Origin: a virus
Length of the DNA stretch: 64,000 bases
Strand: one strand, 5' to 3'
Virus record (IMG/VR): IMGVR_UViG_3300046323_000587
Span: 162,481-226,480 of that record
The position numbers were made by a program, and so were the translations under genes. Shown piece by piece: positions 1 to 10,740 of the stretch. Within the stretch, counting starts at the first letter, position 1, and every line of letters begins with the position of its first letter. A model generated the notes under the pieces. That model ran no database searches. It saw only the letters and a program-made list of their open reading frames with translations, and had not been told where the DNA came from.

Positions 1-1251
1 TGTTCCGTAAAAAGTTCTTACAGATTCGTTATCTAAATTTCCAAAACTTCCAGCTGGTTGATCTGGTCTCTCAATATTATTAGTAAAAGGGGTTTTAGTA
101 CTTACTAATAAAGGAGAAATATGTTTAGAATTTTTTACATATTTATCAGGTATATATTTATGAGCATTGACACCTTCGTAAATTGATAATGGGTCAAATC
201 TTTTAAGAGATTCTTCATATTGTTCTTTTAATTCATTATTTTTTCTATTTAAATGTAAATCTCTTATTATAGAACTTGCTTCTGGAGTATAAGTGTAAGC
301 ATATTTTTTATCTGGAGTAGCCCAAAATAGTTCTAAATTTTTACTATATTCTGGTTTTACACGTACTTCTCCTTTTTCGGCTCTTTCTGAATTTGATTTA
401 CTTCCACCTCTATAATAAATATCTTGTACTTTACTACCCTTTAATTCTTTTTGTGCTTGTTCTGATTTAGTAGAAAGATAAAGTGCATCTGCTATATCAT
501 CATCTTTTGTATTTAAATCTTTATAATACTCTCTAGCACCAGGAATTTCATCTTTTATTTGTCCATACAATTTACTACCTCTATCAACTTCAATACCTTG
601 TTCTTTTGCTTGTTTAAGAAAATCAGTAAACATTTCAGTATTACTTACATAATCTTTAATAACAGGTTTAAATGTCTTTGCAGCATCTCCAGCTAATCCA
701 AATAATGGTAATACTCCTGCTAATGTCAATGGTGAAATTTTACCTGTTGATTTATATTCTTTCCAAGCATCAGAAGCACCTTTAACATCTCCAATTACTG
801 GTAACATATCTGCAACAGTATTAACAATAGATTTACTTACAGCTTTGTTATCCATTGTTTTATCAAGTTTATCTTTTGTATTAGGAACATTCACATTACC
901 TAATGTAGCAGTAGTATTCTTTTGTCTAGGTAAAAGATTAGCTTCTTGTGATTGTCTTTGAGACATACCAAATCCACTAGCATTACCGCCACGTTCTTTT
1001 TCTATACGTCTCTGAATAGCTAATCTCGTACTCATATCATCACCTTGTTCTTCTGATAGTTTTTCAATCTCTTGTTGTTGTTCTCTTTTATCAGATAATA
1101 AACCTTTATTGATTTTAAATTCAAAATAGCTGATTGCTCTACTATTTTTATGCTTAATAGCATTAGCATACATATTTCTTTCAACTGGTGAAAGATGCTT
1201 ATTAGCACCAACTTGTAATGCTTGTTTATCTCCGTCTTGATATTTATTCAT
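1..1251 (-). CDS. Partial gene: tagged multidomain protein with pretoxin-like and ART-like regions
   Basis: The frame is open from ATG at 1251 to the window edge, giving at least 417 codons; the C-terminus lies outside. Residues 14-70 (GANKHLSPVERNMY, then FKINKGLLSDKREQQQEIEKLSE) match the N-terminus of the 6174-7172 protein, so the two share a domain. Residues 142-195 are Gly/hydrophobic helices (DMLPVIGDVKGASDAW, PLTLAGVLPLFGLAGDAAK) resembling pretoxin regions of polymorphic toxins. Residues 278-321 hold IYYRGG and, about 28 residues on, LFWATPDKKYAYTYT, which resembles the YRG and F-x-(T/S) signatures of ADP-ribosyltransferase-like polyvalent domains. The enzyme call is inference, because the region with the catalytic glutamate is off the window. 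The start is MNKYQDGDK, a short form of the tag seen in neighbouring genes. Last visible gene of the minus-strand cassette. Confidence 0.75.
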   Translation of the reverse strand, partial: MNKYQDGDKQALQVGANKHLSPVERNMYANAIKHKNSRAISYFEFKINKGLLSDKREQQQEIEKLSEEQGDDMSTRLAIQRRIEKERGGNASGFGMSQRQSQEANLLPRQKNTTATLGNVNVPNTKDKLDKTMDNKAVSKSIVNTVADMLPVIGDVKGASDAWKEYKSTGKISPLTLAGVLPLFGLAGDAAKTFKPVIKDYVSNTEMFTDFLKQAKEQGIEVDRGSKLYGQIKDEIPGAREYYKDLNTKDDDIADALYLSTKSEQAQKELKGSKVQDIYYRGGSKSNSERAEKGEVRVKPEYSKNLELFWATPDKKYAYTYTPEASSIIRDLHLNRKNNELKEQYEESLKRFDPLSIYEGVNAHKYIPDKYVKNSKHISPLLVSTKTPFTNNIERPDQPAGSFGNLDNESVRTFYGT

Positions 1252-1256
1252 TGTCG

Positions 1257-3404
1257 TTATTTATTTAATAATTTTATATTCTTTAAGAACTTCTGTTTAT
1301 CAATATTAATCTTATCTTTCTTTAAATCTTTTAATACATAATCAGAGATTTCTTTTCTATTAGACTTATTTTTCACTTTATTAAGAATTGTAGTAATTCC
1401 TGAAATCATTTCTTTAATGTCTGATGTATTCTTTCCTCCTTTACTATACTTTAAAGGTTTTTTAAGTAACAACTCTTTTGGTTTCTTTACTACTTTGCCT
1501 ACATAATCTATCAAATCAGGTTCAATAATAGAGTGAGCTTCGTGTTCAACTGTACCAGGAATTTTATATCTTAGATTGTTCCCAATTTTATCGTACAATA
1601 TTTGTTTTGGTAGAAAAGAAAAATCATTAGTATTTTGAATACCAGTAAAGTATTTTGTTAATTCTGGAATATTATCCATTATCCAATCAGCTGAATTTTG
1701 ATTTGCATTATGATAATTATCAATAATTTCTTTTGTATGGCTTGTTTGAGGTTCTCTATTTAATTCATTTCCAATATGAGTTGTTTTACTTACTTTTTGT
1801 AAAGCGTGAGGAATTTCACTAATTAAATCTTGATAAGAATTTGGATTAACTGTAATCTTGTGTTCTATAGGGGTATAAAAAGCTCTTGTATTATTTTTAT
1901 TTAATTCAATTTCTGGATTTCCTGATTCTTCTAACAGTTGTTTAATCCTAACTTTATGAGAAGGAAGTAAATTTGAGTTAGACAGCAATTTATTTAAATT
2001 ATCTTTTGTCATTTGTTTTATAGAACTTAACTCTATCTTACTTCCTTTTTGAAATTTCATTAAAAATTTAAGTTTGTTTCCTTTTTTATATATTTGATTT
2101 TGTTGTTCTGGTGAACTAGACTTATTTAAATAAGAATTTATTCCAACTGCTGGTAAAGCTACTGCTGGTAATTTATTCATTGCAGAAACAAATTTTTTCT
2201 TGTCTTTAAGGTAACTTAATAAATCTTTTTTATCTTGTGAGAAGTTATTAAAGTTATTGTCTATATCTTGTTCTGTAAGTAATTTATAAGGATCTTTAGG
2301 ATTTATTTGATGTCTAATTTCTTGCATTCTTGCGGATATCTCTGTAGGTTTTAAAAGATATTCAGCATTTCTATAGTTTTTATCTTTATCTAAAATTTCA
2401 TTAAATTCATATAAAGGTTTATCTGAATGTAATTTTTTATAATTATCTCGAATATTGTCTAAATCAGTATTTCCATTTTCTGAAAATCCGTCAAGCAATA
2501 ATTTTTCTTGTTTTGGGTATATTAAATTATTACTTTGAGTTCTATTATGATCTAATTCATGTATTCCAGTATTTTTTATATCTGGCATACTAGGATCTAA
2601 AAAAACATTTGTTTCTGCTTTAACTATTTTATCTGTTGTTTTATTTAAATTAGGTATAGCAGAATATATTTCTTTATTTTCTATTGGAGTATCTCCTAAT
2701 AAAGGATAGTGTACGCCCATATTACCTTGTAATATATCTTGATCCTTAGTAAGTTGTGGTGTAATTGCATTAGTTCTTTTTCTCATTTTAGCTATATCTT
2801 CATTTATATACCCTACTGCTAAGGCCCTTCTTTCAAATTCTGGACTATTAATTTGTTTTCTGTATGCTTCTGTACCAGCATTTAATTCTTTTTGTGCAGA
2901 AGATTTAGTTAAATTATTTTTTAACTCTAAAGCAGCTTCTTTTACTTCTTTACCAAATTGATTTAATTTCTTTTTAGTTACTGTAACAACTGGTTTTACT
3001 ACATTTTTAGCTAAATTGGTTATTTTTTGTACACCTTTTTGAGCTAATTTTTTAACTACTGCTTTACCTAATAAACTTGTACCTCCAGTTAAAGCAGTTT
3101 CAGCTATTTGTTCAAAAGTATCATCTGGATTAATTTTACCTGTTGCCATACCAGTTTTAGCATCAATTAAGCCTTTATTAATTTTATCTTGTCTAGAGCC
3201 TTCTACAACTCTATTTGAAGCTTCTTTAGCTTTTTGTATCAATTCCCTATTAAGAAATACTCCTACATCATTTTTACCTTTACTAGGATTGTTTTGAGAT
3301 TCCCATAAAGAACGTGGTTTGTTGTTTCCTGTACGTTTAATATATTGTTCATAAGTCTCTACTGTTTTAGCAGGAAACTGAAATTTCTTGTATGATTTAA
3401 TCAT
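1257..3404 (-). CDS. Large HExxH metalloprotease-type protein with internal KGGKL-like tag (cargo/effector candidate)
   Basis: 715 residues. HELDH at residues 282-286 is a zinc-protease HExxH motif; downstream NAEYLLKPTEISAR (346-359) supplies a conserved Glu in an E-x-x-AR context. The same arrangement occurs in the proteases at 7509-8303 and 9290-10740. Residues 95-145 are hydrophobic/basic, like a pretoxin segment, and follow a KINKGL patch (74-79) shared with two neighbours. Residues 440-457 (KKGNKLKFLMKFQKGSKI) contain the full form of the tag that other proteins carry at one end. A second catalytic-looking region follows, with SEIPHALQ (529-536) and VEHEAH (619-624), of unknown activity. 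The start is MIKSYKKFQ, also tag-like. The gene overlaps the upstream gene by 8 bp and lies 5 bp from the next. Protease chemistry is likely; substrate and location are unknown. Confidence 0.8.
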   Translation of the reverse strand: MIKSYKKFQFPAKTVETYEQYIKRTGNNKPRSLWESQNNPSKGKNDVGVFLNRELIQKAKEASNRVVEGSRQDKINKGLIDAKTGMATGKINPDDTFEQIAETALTGGTSLLGKAVVKKLAQKGVQKITNLAKNVVKPVVTVTKKKLNQFGKEVKEAALELKNNLTKSSAQKELNAGTEAYRKQINSPEFERRALAVGYINEDIAKMRKRTNAITPQLTKDQDILQGNMGVHYPLLGDTPIENKEIYSAIPNLNKTTDKIVKAETNVFLDPSMPDIKNTGIHELDHNRTQSNNLIYPKQEKLLLDGFSENGNTDLDNIRDNYKKLHSDKPLYEFNEILDKDKNYRNAEYLLKPTEISARMQEIRHQINPKDPYKLLTEQDIDNNFNNFSQDKKDLLSYLKDKKKFVSAMNKLPAVALPAVGINSYLNKSSSPEQQNQIYKKGNKLKFLMKFQKGSKIELSSIKQMTKDNLNKLLSNSNLLPSHKVRIKQLLEESGNPEIELNKNNTRAFYTPIEHKITVNPNSYQDLISEIPHALQKVSKTTHIGNELNREPQTSHTKEIIDNYHNANQNSADWIMDNIPELTKYFTGIQNTNDFSFLPKQILYDKIGNNLRYKIPGTVEHEAHSIIEPDLIDYVGKVVKKPKELLLKKPLKYSKGGKNTSDIKEMISGITTILNKVKNKSNRKEISDYVLKDLKKDKINIDKQKFLKNIKLLNK

Positions 3405-4188
3405 TGTTGTCTAATTTAAATTTATATAAAGAAAATAATTTTCCTCCTTTTGAGTAAGCAGGTATTACAAATGCAGCTCCAGAAAACCCTTTTGCATAAG
3501 TATTGTAATCTTTCCACTGAGCTGTAGACAATTGATTTTTACTATTTGCTTTTGGTTTTGCTGAATATCTTCCCATATCTTGATAAGTAAAATGCAGATC
3601 TTTTGGATTTAATTCATAATCTTTAATAATTTGTTCTCCTTGTTCTTTTAAAACTTCTGGAATTCCAGATACATCTATACCTATTTGTTTACCATTTTTA
3701 TCAGTAAAGAGATAAGTTACGCTTCCTCCACTAAATCTAGAAAAATTTTGATTTCCTGTACTAGATATACTTGTTTCTTGACCTTTTTTTGTTGGAATAT
3801 AATTAGATTTTTGTCCAATTTGCCAACCTGTAGACTTTCCTTTATTATTCCAGTCTATGTTTGCAAAAGAGTTAGATCTAACTGGTAATTTACTATCGTA
3901 ACCTTCTTCGTCTAAATATTTTTTGTTATTTAAATCAATTCCTTTTATATCTTTAAATTTTTTATACCTAACTAAATATTCTCCATTGAGTTGTTTTTTA
4001 TGTTGAGCTATATAAGTATCGGGAGTTTGTGGAATATCTGGTAAAAATATATCTTCGTACTTAGATTTTACTGGACCACTTTTCCAATCACTATGTTGTT
4101 TTGTATTTTTTTGATTTGGTGTAATGTCTCCGTCCATAATAAAATGAGATACACCTAATACATTATTTAATGTACTATCTTTAGACAT
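3397..4188 (-). CDS. Tagged hypothetical protein (C-terminal SKGGKLFSLYKFK)
   Basis: 263 residues with no fold that I recognise. The N-terminal half is hydrophilic and contains LPDIPQTPDTY, similar to APDIPTYDTP in the protease at 9757-10740. The centre (RFSGGSVTYLFTDKNGKQIGIDVSG) looks like beta strands. The C-terminus SKGGKLFSLYKFKLDNND is a clear copy of the cassette's basic Gly-Gly tag. The start ATG overlaps by 8 bp the end of the broken gene upstream, and its own end overlaps the next gene by 8 bp, so translation is probably coupled along the three genes. Function unknown; the tag and neighbours suggest a cargo protein. Confidence 0.75.
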   Translation of the reverse strand: MSKDSTLNNVLGVSHFIMDGDITPNQKNTKQHSDWKSGPVKSKYEDIFLPDIPQTPDTYIAQHKKQLNGEYLVRYKKFKDIKGIDLNNKKYLDEEGYDSKLPVRSNSFANIDWNNKGKSTGWQIGQKSNYIPTKKGQETSISSTGNQNFSRFSGGSVTYLFTDKNGKQIGIDVSGIPEVLKEQGEQIIKDYELNPKDLHFTYQDMGRYSAKPKANSKNQLSTAQWKDYNTYAKGFSGAAFVIPAYSKGGKLFSLYKFKLDNND

Positions 4189-4862
4189 TTCGTTTTAATT
4201 TAGGTAATACAATTGTTCTTCCTCCTGTAGAGTTATCAAAAGTTCTTTTAAAAGAGTGTAATTCTCCATTTTTATCTTTAGCAACTCTTAACAATTCATA
4301 AGATTCTCTATATTTCTCTTCAGGTGTTTTTGAATTTGATTTTGAGTTTAGTTTTGAATCTGATTTTGAATTGTTGTTAGAAGTAGATTTTTTAGGCTCT
4401 ACTTTAATTAATTTTGATCCTCATCTTTTGTAGTCAATTTATCTCACCCTCGTTTCAATCCTCCTACAACAACAGTAGCGTTATCAGGAGTAAATATCGA
4501 AGTAACTCTATTTACAAATGAAGGTTCTTGATCAGTTTTGCTTGAATTTTTATTCTCGTTTTGAGAGATAAAACTATTTTCTGTAGAACTTTGTTTAAAA
4601 TTGTTTTGAGTGTTTGGTAGTCTATTAAGAGTAATAGGAGTAGTTTTTTGTCTATTTAAAATAGATTTATTTAATTCTAATCTATTTTTATTTGTGTTTT
4701 CTAAATTATTTTGTTTTAGATAATCTTGGTAAGCTTTTTCTGTTTTTGGTCCCCAAGCTCCATTTATTTTTACACCTAAAACAGACTGTATTTTTTTATT
4801 TTTTCAACACCATTTTCATTTATTTTGCCATTATTTTGAAACTTTTCTATAAATTTTTTCAT
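4181..4862 (-). pseudogene. Broken gene: tagged peptidoglycan-binding-like protein with two frameshifts and one TGA
   Basis: Reading from ATG 4862 gives MKKFIEKFQNNGKINENGVE (an N-terminal tag) and then stops. A one-base frame change in the A-rich stretch near 4795 continues as IQSVLGVKINGAWGPKTEKA, a PG_binding_1-like repeat, followed by an Asn/Ser-rich linker and VVVGGLKRG up to an in-frame TGA at 4444-4446. A second one-base change near 4425 enters a frame ending STGGRTIVLPKLKRNV, with its stop at 4181 overlapping the next start by 8 bp. Each junction needs one added base, consistent with shortened A runs. It may be a decaying gene, a programmed-frameshift gene or a sequencing artefact. 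TGA is a normal stop elsewhere (for example 55519-55521), so recoding is unlikely. Confidence 0.65.
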
Positions 4863-5185
4863 TGATTTGTTTTAATTAAATTTTAACAAAGTAATACTGA
4901 TATGAGTTTTACATCATTTTTTTTACAATATTATAAATTATTTTATTTACTCTTCCTAATAGCTAGTAGCTTTATTTTGAACCTTAGTCAAATCCTTTTA
5001 TCTTTTCAGTTTCATTTCTATTAGTTTTGTAGTTAAGTTTTAGGTTTTAATTAAGATTTAAAAGTAAAGTTTAAAATTAAATTAGAGTTCAATATTTAAA
5101 AAGTAAAAGATAAAATAAATAGAGTTCTAAATGATAATATATGAGATTTTAATTACTTTATTGAATTAATAGAGTAACCTTATTC
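4863..5185. other. Gene-free AT-rich spacer
   Basis: 323 bases with no credible coding frame between the wHTH gene and the broken tagged gene. The sequence is mostly A/T with loose repeats of AAGTTTTAG and AAAGTTTAAAAT types, plus a short palindrome AGCTAGTAGCT near 4970 followed by a T-rich stretch. I see no promoter consensus. It could carry a weak terminator or a late-promoter site, but nothing here shows it. Confidence 0.5.
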
Positions 5186-6115
5186 TTAATATTTATAATA
5201 AGTTTTAATACTAATAAAAGAAGGAAGATTAATATAAAGACATTGATTACGACCAATGAAACCAGATAAACCAGCTTCTGACATATAATTAAATATGGAA
5301 GAGTCATAAACTTGATGTTTAGTATTAATATAGTTCCTTTTTTCATCAAATAATAAACCAAGTTTTTTTAACTTATTGAAGATATTTTTAGCTTGTTGAT
5401 AAGTAACAGATTTAAGTTTTGCTAAAACACTTCTACTTGAAAAAGCAACAGGATTAATTAAATCTTTAAAATTGAATTTAGATAAATTAGAGAAGAAGCG
5501 CGAACCATATTTTGTAATATAATTATCAAAATTCTCGTTTATATGTTTAGTAAGACGAGAAATGATATTTTTATTAGCTTGATTTAATTTTTGCTCACTA
5601 GCTATGAAAATGCCTTTTTCTTTTAATTCATTCTTAACAATTTTATCAATAATAACTTTTTCTTGTTGTTTTTTATTTTGGTCAAGTGCATCTGCAATTA
5701 GAATTTCTTCTAGCATATACAAATCACCACAAGGTACTTTTAATACTCTAGTTTTAGCTACAACGATTTCTGAGTTTTCTGACCAAAATTCGTGAGTACG
5801 AAACACTTTTTTAGTAGCTTGAATAGTAAGATTATTTCCATCTAAAGTAACCCAACCAAGAGCAAGAAGATTTTTAATATGTTTTTTGACCCATTGCTCA
5901 GATGGTGTACGTAAATCACAATCATTTACTACAAATTGATTTATATTTCTAATATCAAGATATTGTGATTTATAGTTTAATATAACACCTCCAACATATA
6001 AAGCTTTCAATTTAAAAAAGAAACAAGTATTACTCATCATAGTATTGTCTAATACCAGATATCTTGATAAACCAACAGGAATAGAAATTTGAGTAACTTG
6101 TTTAATTTGTTTCAT
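5186..6115 (-). CDS. Putative DNA-binding protein with two winged-helix-like segments
   Basis: 309 residues, unrecognised family. Two segments read like winged helices: about residues 70-105 (TPSEQWVKKHIKNLLALGW followed by a VTLDGNNL wing) and about 225-262 (SSRSVLAKLKSVTYQQAKNI, then KLGLLFDEKRNYI). The layout resembles plasmid or phage replication-initiator and MarR-like proteins, so a regulator or replication role is inferred only. It lies inside the cassette of tagged cargo genes but carries no tag itself, and is followed by a 323-base spacer, so it may be a separate transcription unit. Confidence 0.7.
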   Translation of the reverse strand: MKQIKQVTQISIPVGLSRYLVLDNTMMSNTCFFFKLKALYVGGVILNYKSQYLDIRNINQFVVNDCDLRTPSEQWVKKHIKNLLALGWVTLDGNNLTIQATKKVFRTHEFWSENSEIVVAKTRVLKVPCGDLYMLEEILIADALDQNKKQQEKVIIDKIVKNELKEKGIFIASEQKLNQANKNIISRLTKHINENFDNYITKYGSRFFSNLSKFNFKDLINPVAFSSRSVLAKLKSVTYQQAKNIFNKLKKLGLLFDEKRNYINTKHQVYDSSIFNYMSEAGLSGFIGRNQCLYINLPSFISIKTYYKY

Positions 6116-6173
6116 TTTTATTATTTGTTTAAATGTTAAGAGAGTGTTATGATGTAAATATAACTAAAATAAT

Positions 6174-7172
6174 TTATCTTCTTTTGTCGAAACCAAATTT
6201 TTTTTGTTCTAGTAACAAATATATATAAGGATTTTCGTCTTGTGTATACTGTTTTTGTAAGGAACTTAATTTATTTAAAATTTCTTCTTTAGAATTTTTA
6301 TCTATATTTCTTAACTTATCAAAATCTTTGCTTAAAATTTCTTGTAAATTAGTTTTAAATACAGCTGGAGATCTTTTTTCTAATTCTGGCAATAAATTGA
6401 GGTTATTGATATAATCATCTTTAAGTTTTATTACATTTTTTAAATTATTTTTATCAGATAAAATTTTTAAAAAATTGTCGCTATCTGTAGCAGATTTTGA
6501 CATTTCAGATAAACCTATATCTGAAATATTTTTTATTGGATTAAATTTAGAGCTGATTTGCGAAACTAGTTTATTTTTTAACTGTTTCCCTAAAATAGGT
6601 ATAGTTTTTGCCCCAACAGTTATTAGTGATCCTACATCTGTCACTGGTTCAACTAAATTACTTACACCAGATATAGTATTCTCTAATGTATGTTGTTTAT
6701 TAGCTTCATTTCTTTTTTTATTGTATTGGGTTTGTTGATAAAGCTTTAAATCAGGGTCTTTAGTTTTATTTATCTTACGTTGAGCAACATAGTCTTCCTC
6801 AGTCTTTTCTGGACGGCCTGACACAGCTTCTTTAATATCTGATACAGCTAAACTAATAGAATTTCCTGATAAAGTATTATATAAAGGAATATAAGCTTTC
6901 CAAGAATTTGCATTAGATTGTTTTTCTACTAAATTTGTACCGTCTCTTTGATCTCTTCCAGATAATTCAGAAAGACGTTCAATTTCAGATTGTTGTTCTT
7001 TATTATCTTTAACTAATCCTTTATTAATCTTATTTTCAAAGTAATTTATTAATTTACTATTCTTTTTAGCAACTGCTCCTCTATACATTGCTTGTTCAGT
7101 AGCTGATAAATGTTTTTGAGCACCTTTATTCAAACCACCTAATTGATGTTTTAATATTGATTTTAATTTCAT
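6174..7172 (-). CDS. Tagged protein sharing an N-terminal domain with the left-edge gene
   Basis: 332 residues. The N-terminus MKLKSILKHQLGGLNKGAQK carries the N-terminal form of the cassette tag and continues into KHLSATEQAMYRGAVAKKNS and FENKINKGLVKDNKEQQSEI, which align closely with residues 14-70 of the gene at 1-1251. A central hydrophobic stretch (TDVGSLITVGAKTIPILG) is reminiscent of pretoxin helices. The C-terminal 140 residues are helical and charged, with no catalytic motif that I recognise. Only four bases separate it from the 7177-7494 gene. It is probably a paralogue whose C-terminal domain has been swapped; function unknown. Confidence 0.75.
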   Translation of the reverse strand: MKLKSILKHQLGGLNKGAQKHLSATEQAMYRGAVAKKNSKLINYFENKINKGLVKDNKEQQSEIERLSELSGRDQRDGTNLVEKQSNANSWKAYIPLYNTLSGNSISLAVSDIKEAVSGRPEKTEEDYVAQRKINKTKDPDLKLYQQTQYNKKRNEANKQHTLENTISGVSNLVEPVTDVGSLITVGAKTIPILGKQLKNKLVSQISSKFNPIKNISDIGLSEMSKSATDSDNFLKILSDKNNLKNVIKLKDDYINNLNLLPELEKRSPAVFKTNLQEILSKDFDKLRNIDKNSKEEILNKLSSLQKQYTQDENPYIYLLLEQKKFGFDKRR

Positions 7173-7176
7173 TGTT

Positions 7177-7494
7177 TTATAATATAAATTTTAATAAAGA
7201 ATTTAACTTACCTCCTTGTTTCCAAGTTTTAAATCTTTTATGCCAATATAAAGGACTAAATGGGTCTTTTGCTTTTGAAGAATCTTTACCTCCCATTCTA
7301 TTCCAGAAGTTATTACGTCTATCTTTATTTTTATGTTGAGTAAAATCTTCCATTCCACGAAATCCTCCTGAAACTATTTTATATTTATCACCTTTCTTTG
7401 CTAATACCTGCCACTTTTTACTTGAATCAGCTGGAGCTGTTTTCTTAACTCCTACTTTATTAAATCCTTTCTTTATATATCTTTCTGGTATCAT
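7177..7494 (-). CDS. Small basic conserved phage protein with C-terminal KGGKL tag
   Basis: 105 residues, strongly basic. It begins MIPERYIKKGFNKVGVKK and contains KWQVLAKKGDKYKIVSGG, DFTQHKNKDRR, FWNRMGG and SSKAKDPFSPLYWHKRFKTW. I recall closely similar small basic proteins from other large Bacteroidota phages, where the function is not known; this is recollection, not a search. It ends KQGGKLNSLLKFIL, the C-terminal form of the tag, and the next gene begins four bases later with the N-terminal form. A nucleic-acid-binding or virion role would fit the charge but is unproven. Confidence 0.8.
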   Translation of the reverse strand: MIPERYIKKGFNKVGVKKTAPADSSKKWQVLAKKGDKYKIVSGGFRGMEDFTQHKNKDRRNNFWNRMGGKDSSKAKDPFSPLYWHKRFKTWKQGGKLNSLLKFIL

Positions 7495-7508
7495 TTTCTA
7501 TTGATAAT

Positions 7509-8303
7509 TTAATTTATTTTAAATTTACTTAAAGAAGAAAGTTTAGCTCCTTTCTTAGCATATAATACACTAGATTTTTGTTTGTTGCTTACTAAACCAT
7601 TCATCATCTCAATAAATTTATTATCCTCAAAAGATTTAATTAAATTTCCCAGTTTCAATCCTTTATGTTTTGATTTAATCAATTCTAAATCTTCTAATTT
7701 AAACTTATCTTCTGGTTTTTTGTTAAGAAACTTTCTCATTCCCATTAACTCAGGATATAATTCGTGTTCTTGTCCATTATTAAATTGATCTACTTCTCCA
7801 GACTTAGTATAACTTTTAATATAATTCTGTAATTCAGAACTTTCATCAAAATGTGTAGAATGAGTAAATTCGTGAACACTTGTACGAGGAATAGATACAA
7901 TACCATCACCTAAAAAATCATTATATTTCTTAATAGTTTTAGGGAAGACTACAACTTGATGTTTATCTTTTAGGTAAGCTCCTGATACACCTTTATAATG
8001 ACGTTTAACTTTTTCAATATCTTCTTTTGTATATGGTGTATCATTAACAGGAGATTTTAAAAACATTTCTCGTTCTATTTCATCTTCAGGTATAACTGAA
8101 ACTGTATTTAATTTGTTTTGAATATTAGATAAAGTTGTATTAGCTTTTTTCTTGTTACCATACAACTTTATCATTTTATCTCTTGTTGTAGGATTATTAA
8201 ACCAATCTTTTACATAATTAAGATGTTCTTTTAAATCTGTTTCAGAATTTACAGAAGTATTTTGGACAGATTTTGTAGGTTTATCTTTGTCAAATTTGTT
8301 CAT
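7509..8303 (-). CDS. HExxH zinc-metalloprotease-type protein with C-terminal tag
   Basis: 264 residues. HEFTH at 144-148 is preceded by strands (QVVVFPKT, IVSIPRTSV) and followed by ELYPELMGMRKFL (181-193), whose Glu sits where the E-x-x-AR motif lies in its two relatives, so it may be the third zinc ligand. The last 16 residues, AKKGAKLSSLSKFKIN, are the cassette tag. The N-terminal 70 residues are charged and helical. There is no signal peptide. It is the smallest of three related metalloprotease genes and the best example of catalytic domain plus tag. Substrate unknown; host cell entry or lysis are possibilities but inference. Confidence 0.8.
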   Translation of the reverse strand: MNKFDKDKPTKSVQNTSVNSETDLKEHLNYVKDWFNNPTTRDKMIKLYGNKKKANTTLSNIQNKLNTVSVIPEDEIEREMFLKSPVNDTPYTKEDIEKVKRHYKGVSGAYLKDKHQVVVFPKTIKKYNDFLGDGIVSIPRTSVHEFTHSTHFDESSELQNYIKSYTKSGEVDQFNNGQEHELYPELMGMRKFLNKKPEDKFKLEDLELIKSKHKGLKLGNLIKSFEDNKFIEMMNGLVSNKQKSSVLYAKKGAKLSSLSKFKIN

Positions 8304-8348
8304 AGCATAAATTTGTTTTATATTGATTTTATTTGATTTATACGATTT

Positions 8349-8606
8349 TTATAAAACATTTGATCCAGAGTTTAACTTATTAATATCTTTACTTAAATCA
8401 GCTAATATCGATTTAATTTCAAGTTTATCTTTTTCTGTAAATGGATTGATTTTTTGAATTTTGTCAAAATTAGGTGTAATCTCAGTTGGGTTGTTTAATT
8501 TGATTCCTGAAATTGATTTTTGGTAAGCTTTTTTTGTAATATTGTCCCAAATACCTGTTTGAGAAATGTTGAGATATTTTTGTAATAATTTTATACGCTC
8601 TTTCAT
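8349..8606 (-). CDS. Small protein with a peptidoglycan-binding-like N-terminus
   Basis: 85 residues. IKLLQKYLNISQTGIWDNIT followed by KKAYQKSI fits the PG_binding_1 pattern (LQ, then L, then G-x-W, then TxxAxxxxQ). The rest (PTEITPNFDKIQKINPF and a charged helix) is unrecognised. It lacks a clear basic Gly-Gly tag. The broken gene at 4181-4862 carries a similar repeat, so two peptidoglycan-binding-like proteins lie among metalloproteases, which points toward cell-wall contact. The match is short, so the call is moderate. Confidence 0.6.
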   Translation of the reverse strand: MKERIKLLQKYLNISQTGIWDNITKKAYQKSISGIKLNNPTEITPNFDKIQKINPFTEKDKLEIKSILADLSKDINKLNSGSNVL

Positions 8607-8626
8607 AATTATTAAATTATTATTAA

Positions 8627-9286
8627 TTAAGCACTAACTTGTGTATTAGGTCTTGGATGTAATCTCCAATACATTTGAGTGTATTTATTCACCATTCTTC
8701 CTATAATATCAGAAACCATCCAATTAGGTATTCCAGAAGGTGTCTCTCCATCTATTTTACAACAACCAAATTCTTCTAAATCTTTTGGATTAGCAGGAAT
8801 AAAATCTACACTAATATATTTAATGTTTTCAGTTGGAGGGTTAAATAAAAACCCATCTTTAAGATTTGGGTGAAACCAGACAAAAGGTTTTGTACGAGTA
8901 AATTTACCATAATCTTGTTGTTTCCAAGTTGGGCCTTTAACTATATTGAATACATATTCTCTATCAACAGTTCCTACAAACTTAATTGGATTTAGAACAT
9001 ATTGAGAAGGTTTAGGTAATTTAAAATGTAGTGTATTATTGAAGGAAGATACATTGCAACATAAACTTAAATCTTGACAATCTAATTCTAAACAATTAAT
9101 AGATTGTATTAATTCATTTTCTTGTAAAGTACCAGATAAAGATAATTGTTTAATTATTGCATCTCTTTCTACTAATATCTCATCTTGTAATTGTTCGTGA
9201 GAATAAGGTTCTTGTAAAGTTGCTCCTTTTAACCCAGCTAAAATATGATTATTAATTGCAGAAGCTATTTGTTCTAGAGTATTCAT
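8627..9286 (-). CDS. Conserved phage protein, possible virion structural component
   Basis: 219 residues with a helical N-terminus (MNTLEQIASAINNHILAGL) and a beta-rich body with paired cysteines (LELDCQDLSLCC, EFGCCKIDGE). The C-terminus NKYTQMYWRLHPRPNTQVSA is aromatic and ordered. It is untagged, unlike its neighbours, and looks like a head-tail or tail component rather than an enzyme, but I cannot assign a family. The start ATG lies 3 bases from the stop of the preceding gene fragment, consistent with one operon. Confidence 0.65.
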   Translation of the reverse strand: MNTLEQIASAINNHILAGLKGATLQEPYSHEQLQDEILVERDAIIKQLSLSGTLQENELIQSINCLELDCQDLSLCCNVSSFNNTLHFKLPKPSQYVLNPIKFVGTVDREYVFNIVKGPTWKQQDYGKFTRTKPFVWFHPNLKDGFLFNPPTENIKYISVDFIPANPKDLEEFGCCKIDGETPSGIPNWMVSDIIGRMVNKYTQMYWRLHPRPNTQVSA

Positions 9287-9289
9287 TGA

Positions 9290-9607
9290 TTAAAATTTAA
9301 TTTTATTAAATGAAGATAGTATACCTCCTAATTTAAAAGTCTTATTCATAATTTTTTTAATATTTCTTTTGTTTGTCATTTCGTCAGGTTTAATTTCTCT
9401 ATTAAACAAAGTATTTGCTATTTTAGCAAAGAATTTAGGTTGTTTTTTTGTACTATGATATAATTCATAAGTATCTGTATCTATATCTTCAGAGTTATTT
9501 TCTGCTAAATTTTTCAACTCTTTCCAATTTTTGTTTTTAAATTTTTTTTGTGAATTGTATTTACCTAAATCCTCTAAATTAAACATTGTAGTATATTTTC
9601 TAGCCAA
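9290..9607 (-). CDS. C-terminal part of frameshifted metalloprotease, with terminal tag
   Basis: The frame is open from 9775 down to 9290, but the only start upstream of 9590 is a TTG at 9607, so this is unlikely to be an independent gene. Read back across the AT repeat it continues the 9757-10740 protein. The restored stretch includes DYLSIPDERLARKYTT, which matches YLLKPTEISARMQE of the 715-residue metalloprotease, that is, the Glu motif expected downstream of HExxH. The last 15 residues, KLGGILSSFNKIKF and flank, are the cassette tag. Removing one AT unit (or adding two) at 9760-9773 fuses the two parts. Treat 9290-10740 as one gene of about 480 codons in another phase. Confidence 0.7.
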   Translation of the reverse strand: MARKYTTMFNLEDLGKYNSQKKFKNKNWKELKNLAENNSEDIDTDTYELYHSTKKQPKFFAKIANTLFNREIKPDEMTNKRNIKKIMNKTFKLGGILSSFNKIKF

Positions 9608-9756
9608 CCTTTCATCAGGAATAGATAAATAATCTTTATAAGGTTTTGTTGGTTCTCCATTTAACTGTTCACTTATTTTTTGTTCGATAGCTAAATTTTT
9701 ATGTAAATTTTTAATATAAGCATTTTCATCAGATTCTTTTTTTCCATAGGTAGATT

Positions 9757-10740
9757 CTAATATATATATATATTTTTATCTGAAAGATTGTTTCCTCCTC
9801 CTGTAGCTGCGTGTGAAAATTCGTGAGTACCTAAATATTTATATATATCTTTATAAGTTCTTTCTACATCTTTAGATTTATTGTAGGGACCTACTTCCAT
9901 AGGAAAAACAAATTCTTTTTTTGAAGGTAAGTTAATTTTTTTTGTATTATTAGAAAAAATTTGTACGTTAGGAGATGTTAAATTGTCTTTTGGGTAATCT
10001 AGCCCTGTATCTTCTAAATTTTTTAATCTTGTACCTATTTGTTTATCATTATATCCAGCAACTTTATTTAATTTTTGACCTCTTTTCGAAGTATAAAAAT
10101 CTATCAATCTTTTTTTATCGGGTTCGTAAGAATCTTTAAAAGATTTTTTATCGGTATAATTTTTTAAATTATAGCCCTCTAATTTTGTAGGTAAAGGTTG
10201 TTGAGATTTACCAGTTAATCTAATAATTTCAGAATCTACATTTTCTTTATGCCAACCAACAAGTTTTTGTTTATATTCTTCAGCATTATTTTTTGCCTCT
10301 TTTAAATTTTGAGTTATTTTTTCTATTTGTTGTTTATCTATAGGATCTAAAGAGTAGTTTTTTGGATCTTCCAATTTTTTAAAAGATTCTTTCCTATTAT
10401 AAAAATCTAAATCTTTTTCTAAGTCTTTTACATGATTTGTATACAATGTATTAACATCTGTTGGAGTTTTTTGTTCGGCTTTTAAATTTTCTAATTCATT
10501 AAGCAAATTTTCTCTATTCATTTTATTCCAAGGGTCTACATTTTCTTGAAATTCTTCTTCAGGTGTATCATAAGTAGGAATATCTGGAGCGTAATAATTA
10601 TTATATTTATCTTTTGAGTCTTTTTTAATATTTCTTTTTCCTTTAATATCTACATTTTTTAGTACAATAGTTGAATTTTGTAAAGTTCCATCAGGTTCTT
10701 GGTATTTTTTAATTTTTTTAAAACTATTTAGTTTTTTCAT
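9757..10740 (-). CDS. N-terminal part of frameshifted HExxH metalloprotease
   Basis: 327 residues before a TAG created inside or just after an AT repeat. The start MKKLNSFKKIKKYQEPDG is the N-terminal form of the tag. A long charged helical region follows, then FVFPMEVGPY and THEFSH (HEFSH at 306-310), the zinc-protease motif. The predicted third-ligand motif is only present in the next fragment (9290-9607 frame). The protein ends in an artificial NIYIY translated from the repeat. It sits just downstream of the strong terminator at 10751-10795, so it probably starts a separate unit or is expressed by read-through. Confidence 0.75.
   Translation of the reverse strand: MKKLNSFKKIKKYQEPDGTLQNSTIVLKNVDIKGKRNIKKDSKDKYNNYYAPDIPTYDTPEEEFQENVDPWNKMNRENLLNELENLKAEQKTPTDVNTLYTNHVKDLEKDLDFYNRKESFKKLEDPKNYSLDPIDKQQIEKITQNLKEAKNNAEEYKQKLVGWHKENVDSEIIRLTGKSQQPLPTKLEGYNLKNYTDKKSFKDSYEPDKKRLIDFYTSKRGQKLNKVAGYNDKQIGTRLKNLEDTGLDYPKDNLTSPNVQIFSNNTKKINLPSKKEFVFPMEVGPYNKSKDVERTYKDIYKYLGTHEFSHAATGGGNNLSDKNIYIY
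9760..9773. repeat. AT dinucleotide microsatellite, seven units, at the protease frameshift
   Basis: Seven AT units followed by five T bases. It lies exactly where the upstream protease frame ends and the downstream frame must begin. Loss of one unit or gain of two restores a continuous reading frame. Slipped-strand changes at such tracts are a known route to phase variation, but a sequencing or assembly indel would look identical. Confidence 0.8.

Follow-up and report, generated by a model that had tools for sequence, protein, structure and literature searches.

Repeat-driven ON/OFF switching of genes is a standard strategy of bacteria; to our knowledge it has hardly been described for genes carried by phages. 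In SSR contingency loci, such as those of Campylobacter (PMC6321876), a dinucleotide tract, six units long or more, lies inside an open reading frame (ORF), changes in unit number shift the frame, and both halves of the gene are open. The locus described here shares these features, and differs in that the known loci are bacterial, mostly concern surface-structure genes and have observed length variation, whereas here the tract lies in a late gene of a phage and has the same length in two contigs of one clone. Zincin metalloproteases resemble its product through HEFSH and a downstream P-x-E-x-x-A-R, which are spaced as in a sister ORF (1257-3404) to within three residues, although the likeness is by motif only and the two motifs here lie in different frames. 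The late-gene neighbourhood of terminase, portal, major head protein and tail ring protein 2 is that of crAss-like phages (phi-crAss001, PMC10172136; MT835470); in crAss-like relatives, unlike here, nothing lies between an auxiliary-type gene and ring protein 2 where gene order is readable. Like recent frameshift pseudogenes of phages, the locus has one frame break, and further genes of its record are broken as well; unlike most such breaks, it falls in a microsatellite and so is easier to reverse.

A single coding sequence split between two frames

The window analysed (the whole 64,000-nucleotide stretch) covers the final 64 kb of a virus record that is 226,480 bases long. The split gene lies on its minus strand, directly upstream of tail ring protein 2 (8627-9286, minus strand; PF25702, Pfam E 2.9e-11), which is the next gene downstream and was used as the synteny anchor. 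The first half of the gene (9757-10740, minus strand), recognised by its codon score, encodes 327 residues in frame 0, ending in HEFSHAATGGGNNLSDKNIYIY and a TAG. The second half (9290-9775, minus strand) is open for 161 codons in the -1 frame, with no ATG before 9586 and no GTG or TTG before 9607. The frames change at an (AT)7 microsatellite (9760-9773): the TAG that closes frame 0 (9757-9759) stands right at the tract, and the -1 frame is shut upstream by a TAA just before it. These two stops flank the switch and confine it to about 21 nt, consisting of A5 and (AT)7.

Codon usage was scored with a model trained on the other genes of the window, on which scale true genes reach 0.88 ± 0.17, with wrong frames at about -1.4 to -1.8. 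Along the split gene the coding signal lies in frame 0 (+0.6 to +1.0) as far as the tract and in the -1 frame (+0.4 to +0.9) from there on, and the roughly 60 codons of the second half that come ahead of its first possible start are themselves codon-like (0.66). The longest wrong-frame open run among 2,548 spans 84 codons, against 161 for the second half. A decoder that penalises frameshifts needed just one shift, at 9775, to read 10740-9290 as one gene, and no further lesion is present in either half. In both assemblies the locus is a single coding sequence whose frame changes at the tract.

The motifs are divided between the halves. The first half holds HEFSH (9811-9825, minus strand), an HExxH motif and putative zinc-binding and catalytic site, and begins with an N-terminal MKKLNSFKKIKKYQEPDG that resembles the N-termini of neighbouring genes; the second holds PDERLAR (9599-9619, minus strand), whose Glu (9611-9613) is the putative third zinc ligand and which lies upstream of every start codon in the -1 frame, and a C-terminal tag, KLGGILSSFNKIKF (9293-9334, minus strand), that is common to genes of the cluster. 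Two sister ORFs carry comparable motifs, namely the zincin-like ORF 1257-3404 (minus strand; HELDH ... YLLKPTEISAR, with the tag internal) and ORF 7509-8303 (minus strand; HEFTH, with the tag C-terminal). The joined halves align with ORF 1257-3404 from HExxH via the Glu motif to the tag (z 2.7, p 0.011), interrupted by a single gap of three residues ahead of the Glu motif; neither half alone gave such an alignment with that ORF. HExxH was found in three of the seven cluster proteins (at most two such proteins in any of 5000 shuffles), P.E..[AG]R in two ORFs only, the split gene and ORF 1257-3404 (224 kb, ORFs of at least 60 codons), and the tag, loosely defined as GG[KI]L.SL.KF, in five ORFs, all within 1257-10740 and internal in one (shuffle mean 0.05), these tests being somewhat optimistic because the patterns were picked after the sequences had been seen.

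A preliminary description of this DNA had proposed one original gene split at an AT repeat. Its coordinates and frames, the (AT)7 tract at 9760-9773, the motifs on the HExxH and Glu sides and the tag were all found as it gave them, and the frame-switching codon score, the joined alignment with the sister ORF and the tag make a strong case from sequence that the two halves were one gene. The same description had called the product a metalloprotease, a name that has behind it the zincin-like motif pair, with a third ligand that is putative and in the other frame: no significant match to a known metalloprotease family was obtained in Pfam, PHROG or PDB chains (weak Pfam and PHROG matches, with E above 0.001, were counted as noise), and single-sequence structure models were of low confidence (mean pLDDT 40 and 42), too poor for use. 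The protein is accordingly named only as putatively zincin-like, after its motifs. That it may be a phage cargo protein can reasonably be guessed from where the gene lies in the genome and from the shared tags; the structure paper on phi-crAss001 describes cargo proteins and does not mention a protease (PMC10172136), and a search of one literature library for proteases among crAss-like cargo returned no paper.

Terminal motifs recur in many of the late accessory proteins (window 1257-10740, and L048), as GGKL.SL.KFK at the C-terminus and K[FYH]Q..G at the N-terminus. In ORF 1257-3404 the two meet internally, as if two such genes had fused. The recurrent motifs are possibly a sorting or packaging tag. 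Two further genes, 6174-7172 and 1-1260 (minus strand), are paralogous, with a shared N-terminal domain of about 52% identity over 75 residues.

The AT tract and a second assembly

Exact (AT)7 occurs once in the whole 226,480-base record and is its longest AT repeat; AT runs of at least 14 bp are expected 0.05-0.11 times in 224 kb under Markov models of order 1-4. A tract of 14 bp nevertheless arises in about 9% of synonymous codon shuffles of the first half, since the encoded IYIY peptide favours such a tract, so that its length by itself is just mildly unusual; the idea that the length is strongly non-random was weakened by these shuffles. The cut-off used for phase-variable dinucleotide repeats is six or more units, with the caveat that sequences at cut-offs may be too stable, or too low in mutability, for true switching (PMC6321876); the seven units at 9760-9773 exceed that cut-off.

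The same (AT)7 is present in a second contig, IMGVR_UViG_3300046328_000499 (141 kb), which shows zero substitutions relative to the record over about 140 kb (all but about 1.3 kb of the contig entered the comparison). The contigs differ solely by a 9-bp indel, located at window position 5113 in intergenic DNA rich in repeats. A search of IMG/VR with a gapped pattern permitting other repeat numbers returned nothing beyond these two contigs. Because both represent one clonal population, they hardly test whether the tract varies.

Phage lineage, relatives and other broken genes

The phage carrying the split gene is crAss-like and is known from metagenomes alone. Crassvirales hallmarks are present in the form of terminase, portal and head protein (phrog_6681, phrog_6547, phrog_11589) and tail ring genes (PF25702; tblastn), and the best identity of the head protein to GenBank records, about 34% (tblastn), places the phage far from any named crAss-like phage. 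The genetic code of the record is standard, with TAG as the ordinary terminal codon of 6 of 54 genes. Stop-codon recoding, in which TAG would be read as an amino acid, was considered as the cause of the break and rejected, as TAG is a normal terminator here and frame 0 beyond the TAG is non-coding. In several of the relatives (L013-L047) head-protein genes look fragmented under table 11, a pattern that suggests stop-codon recoding in those phages.

Thirty-six head-protein loci were fetched, 35 of them from relatives, whose head proteins mostly show 28-37% identity. No homologue of either half was detectable in the head-protein loci of the 35 relatives. Searches of viral contigs and GenBank phages with the protease halves, ORF 7509-8303 and the paralogue pair 6174/1260 found no homologues beyond the same clone, and GTDB genome contigs, queried with the ring protein only, yielded none. 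Among relatives with readable gene order, the auxiliary-type gene adjoins ring protein 2 (L010, 5933/5953; L019, 15623/15620; L031, 5522/5529; L040, 14260/14277). Because these relatives leave no room between the two genes, the split gene is a lineage-specific insertion, and the cluster of about 8 kb on the far side of ring protein 2 seems to be one too, the next conserved gene lying in L048 near 18329. Two separate genes at this site in relatives, which the preliminary description had named as evidence that would count against it, were not encountered; the relatives have no gene there.

Frame-broken genes are common in the record, as read by the frameshift decoder. A late gene of the same cluster (4184-4862, minus strand) has two frameshifts and an in-frame TGA, identical in both contigs; its N-terminus is MKKFIEKFQNNGKINENG, and one stretch of it loosely resembles ORF 8349-8606. 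Just one more AT tract reaches 13 bp, (TA)6T at L054 10619-10631; it too lies at a frame switch, and the gene that contains it (L054 10567-11341; G000, about 33.1 kb) holds an in-frame TAG as well; this stretch is absent from the second contig. At L053 6266-7609 and in its neighbourhood (G000, about 43-58 kb) several genes contain numerous in-frame stops or frameshifts, which is more gene breakage than is usual in a phage; one of these genes resembles alanyl-tRNA synthetase by eye.

Explanations of the frame break

Recent inactivation by slippage is the most economical reading of the locus. The intact ancestor would have been one late accessory gene with a zincin-like product about 480 residues long, and replication slippage would have altered the number of AT units between HExxH and the downstream Glu motif and so put the gene out of frame. 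In the assembled population the current product would be 327 residues long and, because it is without the Glu motif and the tag, is probably inactive. The break appears to be recent, because both halves remain open and codon-like. Reversal by the same slippage could in principle restore the frame, because (AT)7 exceeds the six-unit cut-off (PMC6321876). We infer slippage as the cause, and consider it probable on balance that an accessory late zincin-like gene recently lost its frame through a change in AT units, reversibly in principle. Further broken genes in the record, including 4184-4862 and the (TA)6T gene of L054, count in favour of inactivation. Counting against it are the lesion-free state of both halves, whereas an unselected gene gathers lesions with time, a tract long enough for reversible switching by the published cut-off (PMC6321876), and the intact ancestor, which was seen in no homologue, none having been found.

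The preliminary description had favoured ON/OFF switching. A reversible switch at the AT tract is possible; that the tract is a selected contingency locus, at which phase variation turns the protein ON or OFF among phages of one population, is a reading that we regard as rather unlikely. It would fit the unit number above the six-unit cut-off (PMC6321876), the uniqueness of (AT)7 in the record, the intact state of both halves and the fact that the one further AT tract to reach 13 bp coincides with a frame switch as well. Set against these are the absence of length variation (seven units in both contigs, a weak test in one clonal population), the frequency of broken genes in the record and the in-frame TAG of the second AT-tract gene, the 9% of synonymous shuffles in which the encoded peptide alone yields such a tract, and a unit number near the lower limit, at which mutability may be too low (PMC6321876). 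A more specific form, in which a dinucleotide switch governs a virion-associated protease, ON and OFF particles coexist in one population and the (TA)6T gene follows the same strategy, we hold to be slightly more doubtful again. Because other genes of the record are also frame-broken, plain inactivation is at least as likely as switching.

Programmed expression of some full-length protein across the break, whether the ribosome shifts frame or the transcript slips at the tract, could draw on two frames that stay open and codon-like as far as the tract, and is very improbable nonetheless: reading the sequence by eye, there is no in-frame X XXY YYZ slippery heptamer at the switch, the downstream RNA is without stable structure (fold z-score 0.14), and A5 is a short run for transcript slippage. 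An assembly or sequencing error in the tract, with the real gene in frame, has a marginally smaller chance of being correct; repeats are typical sites of error and both records come from metagenome assemblies, but a one-off assembly error is unlikely because a second assembly, different by 9 bp at window 5113 and otherwise identical over about 140 kb, carries the same tract, and common read lengths far exceed 14 bp. Least probable of all is that the halves are two separate genes, each open and the second started at an internal ATG (9586) or TTG (9607) to give a short tagged protein, as the codon-like stretch of about 60 codons and the Glu motif lie upstream of any such start, the sister ORF alignment was obtained with the joined sequence only, and relatives carry no gene at the site.

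If the break is a simple inactivation by slippage, a large crAss-like phage would be in the course of losing accessory late genes, with AT tracts as the places at which they break.
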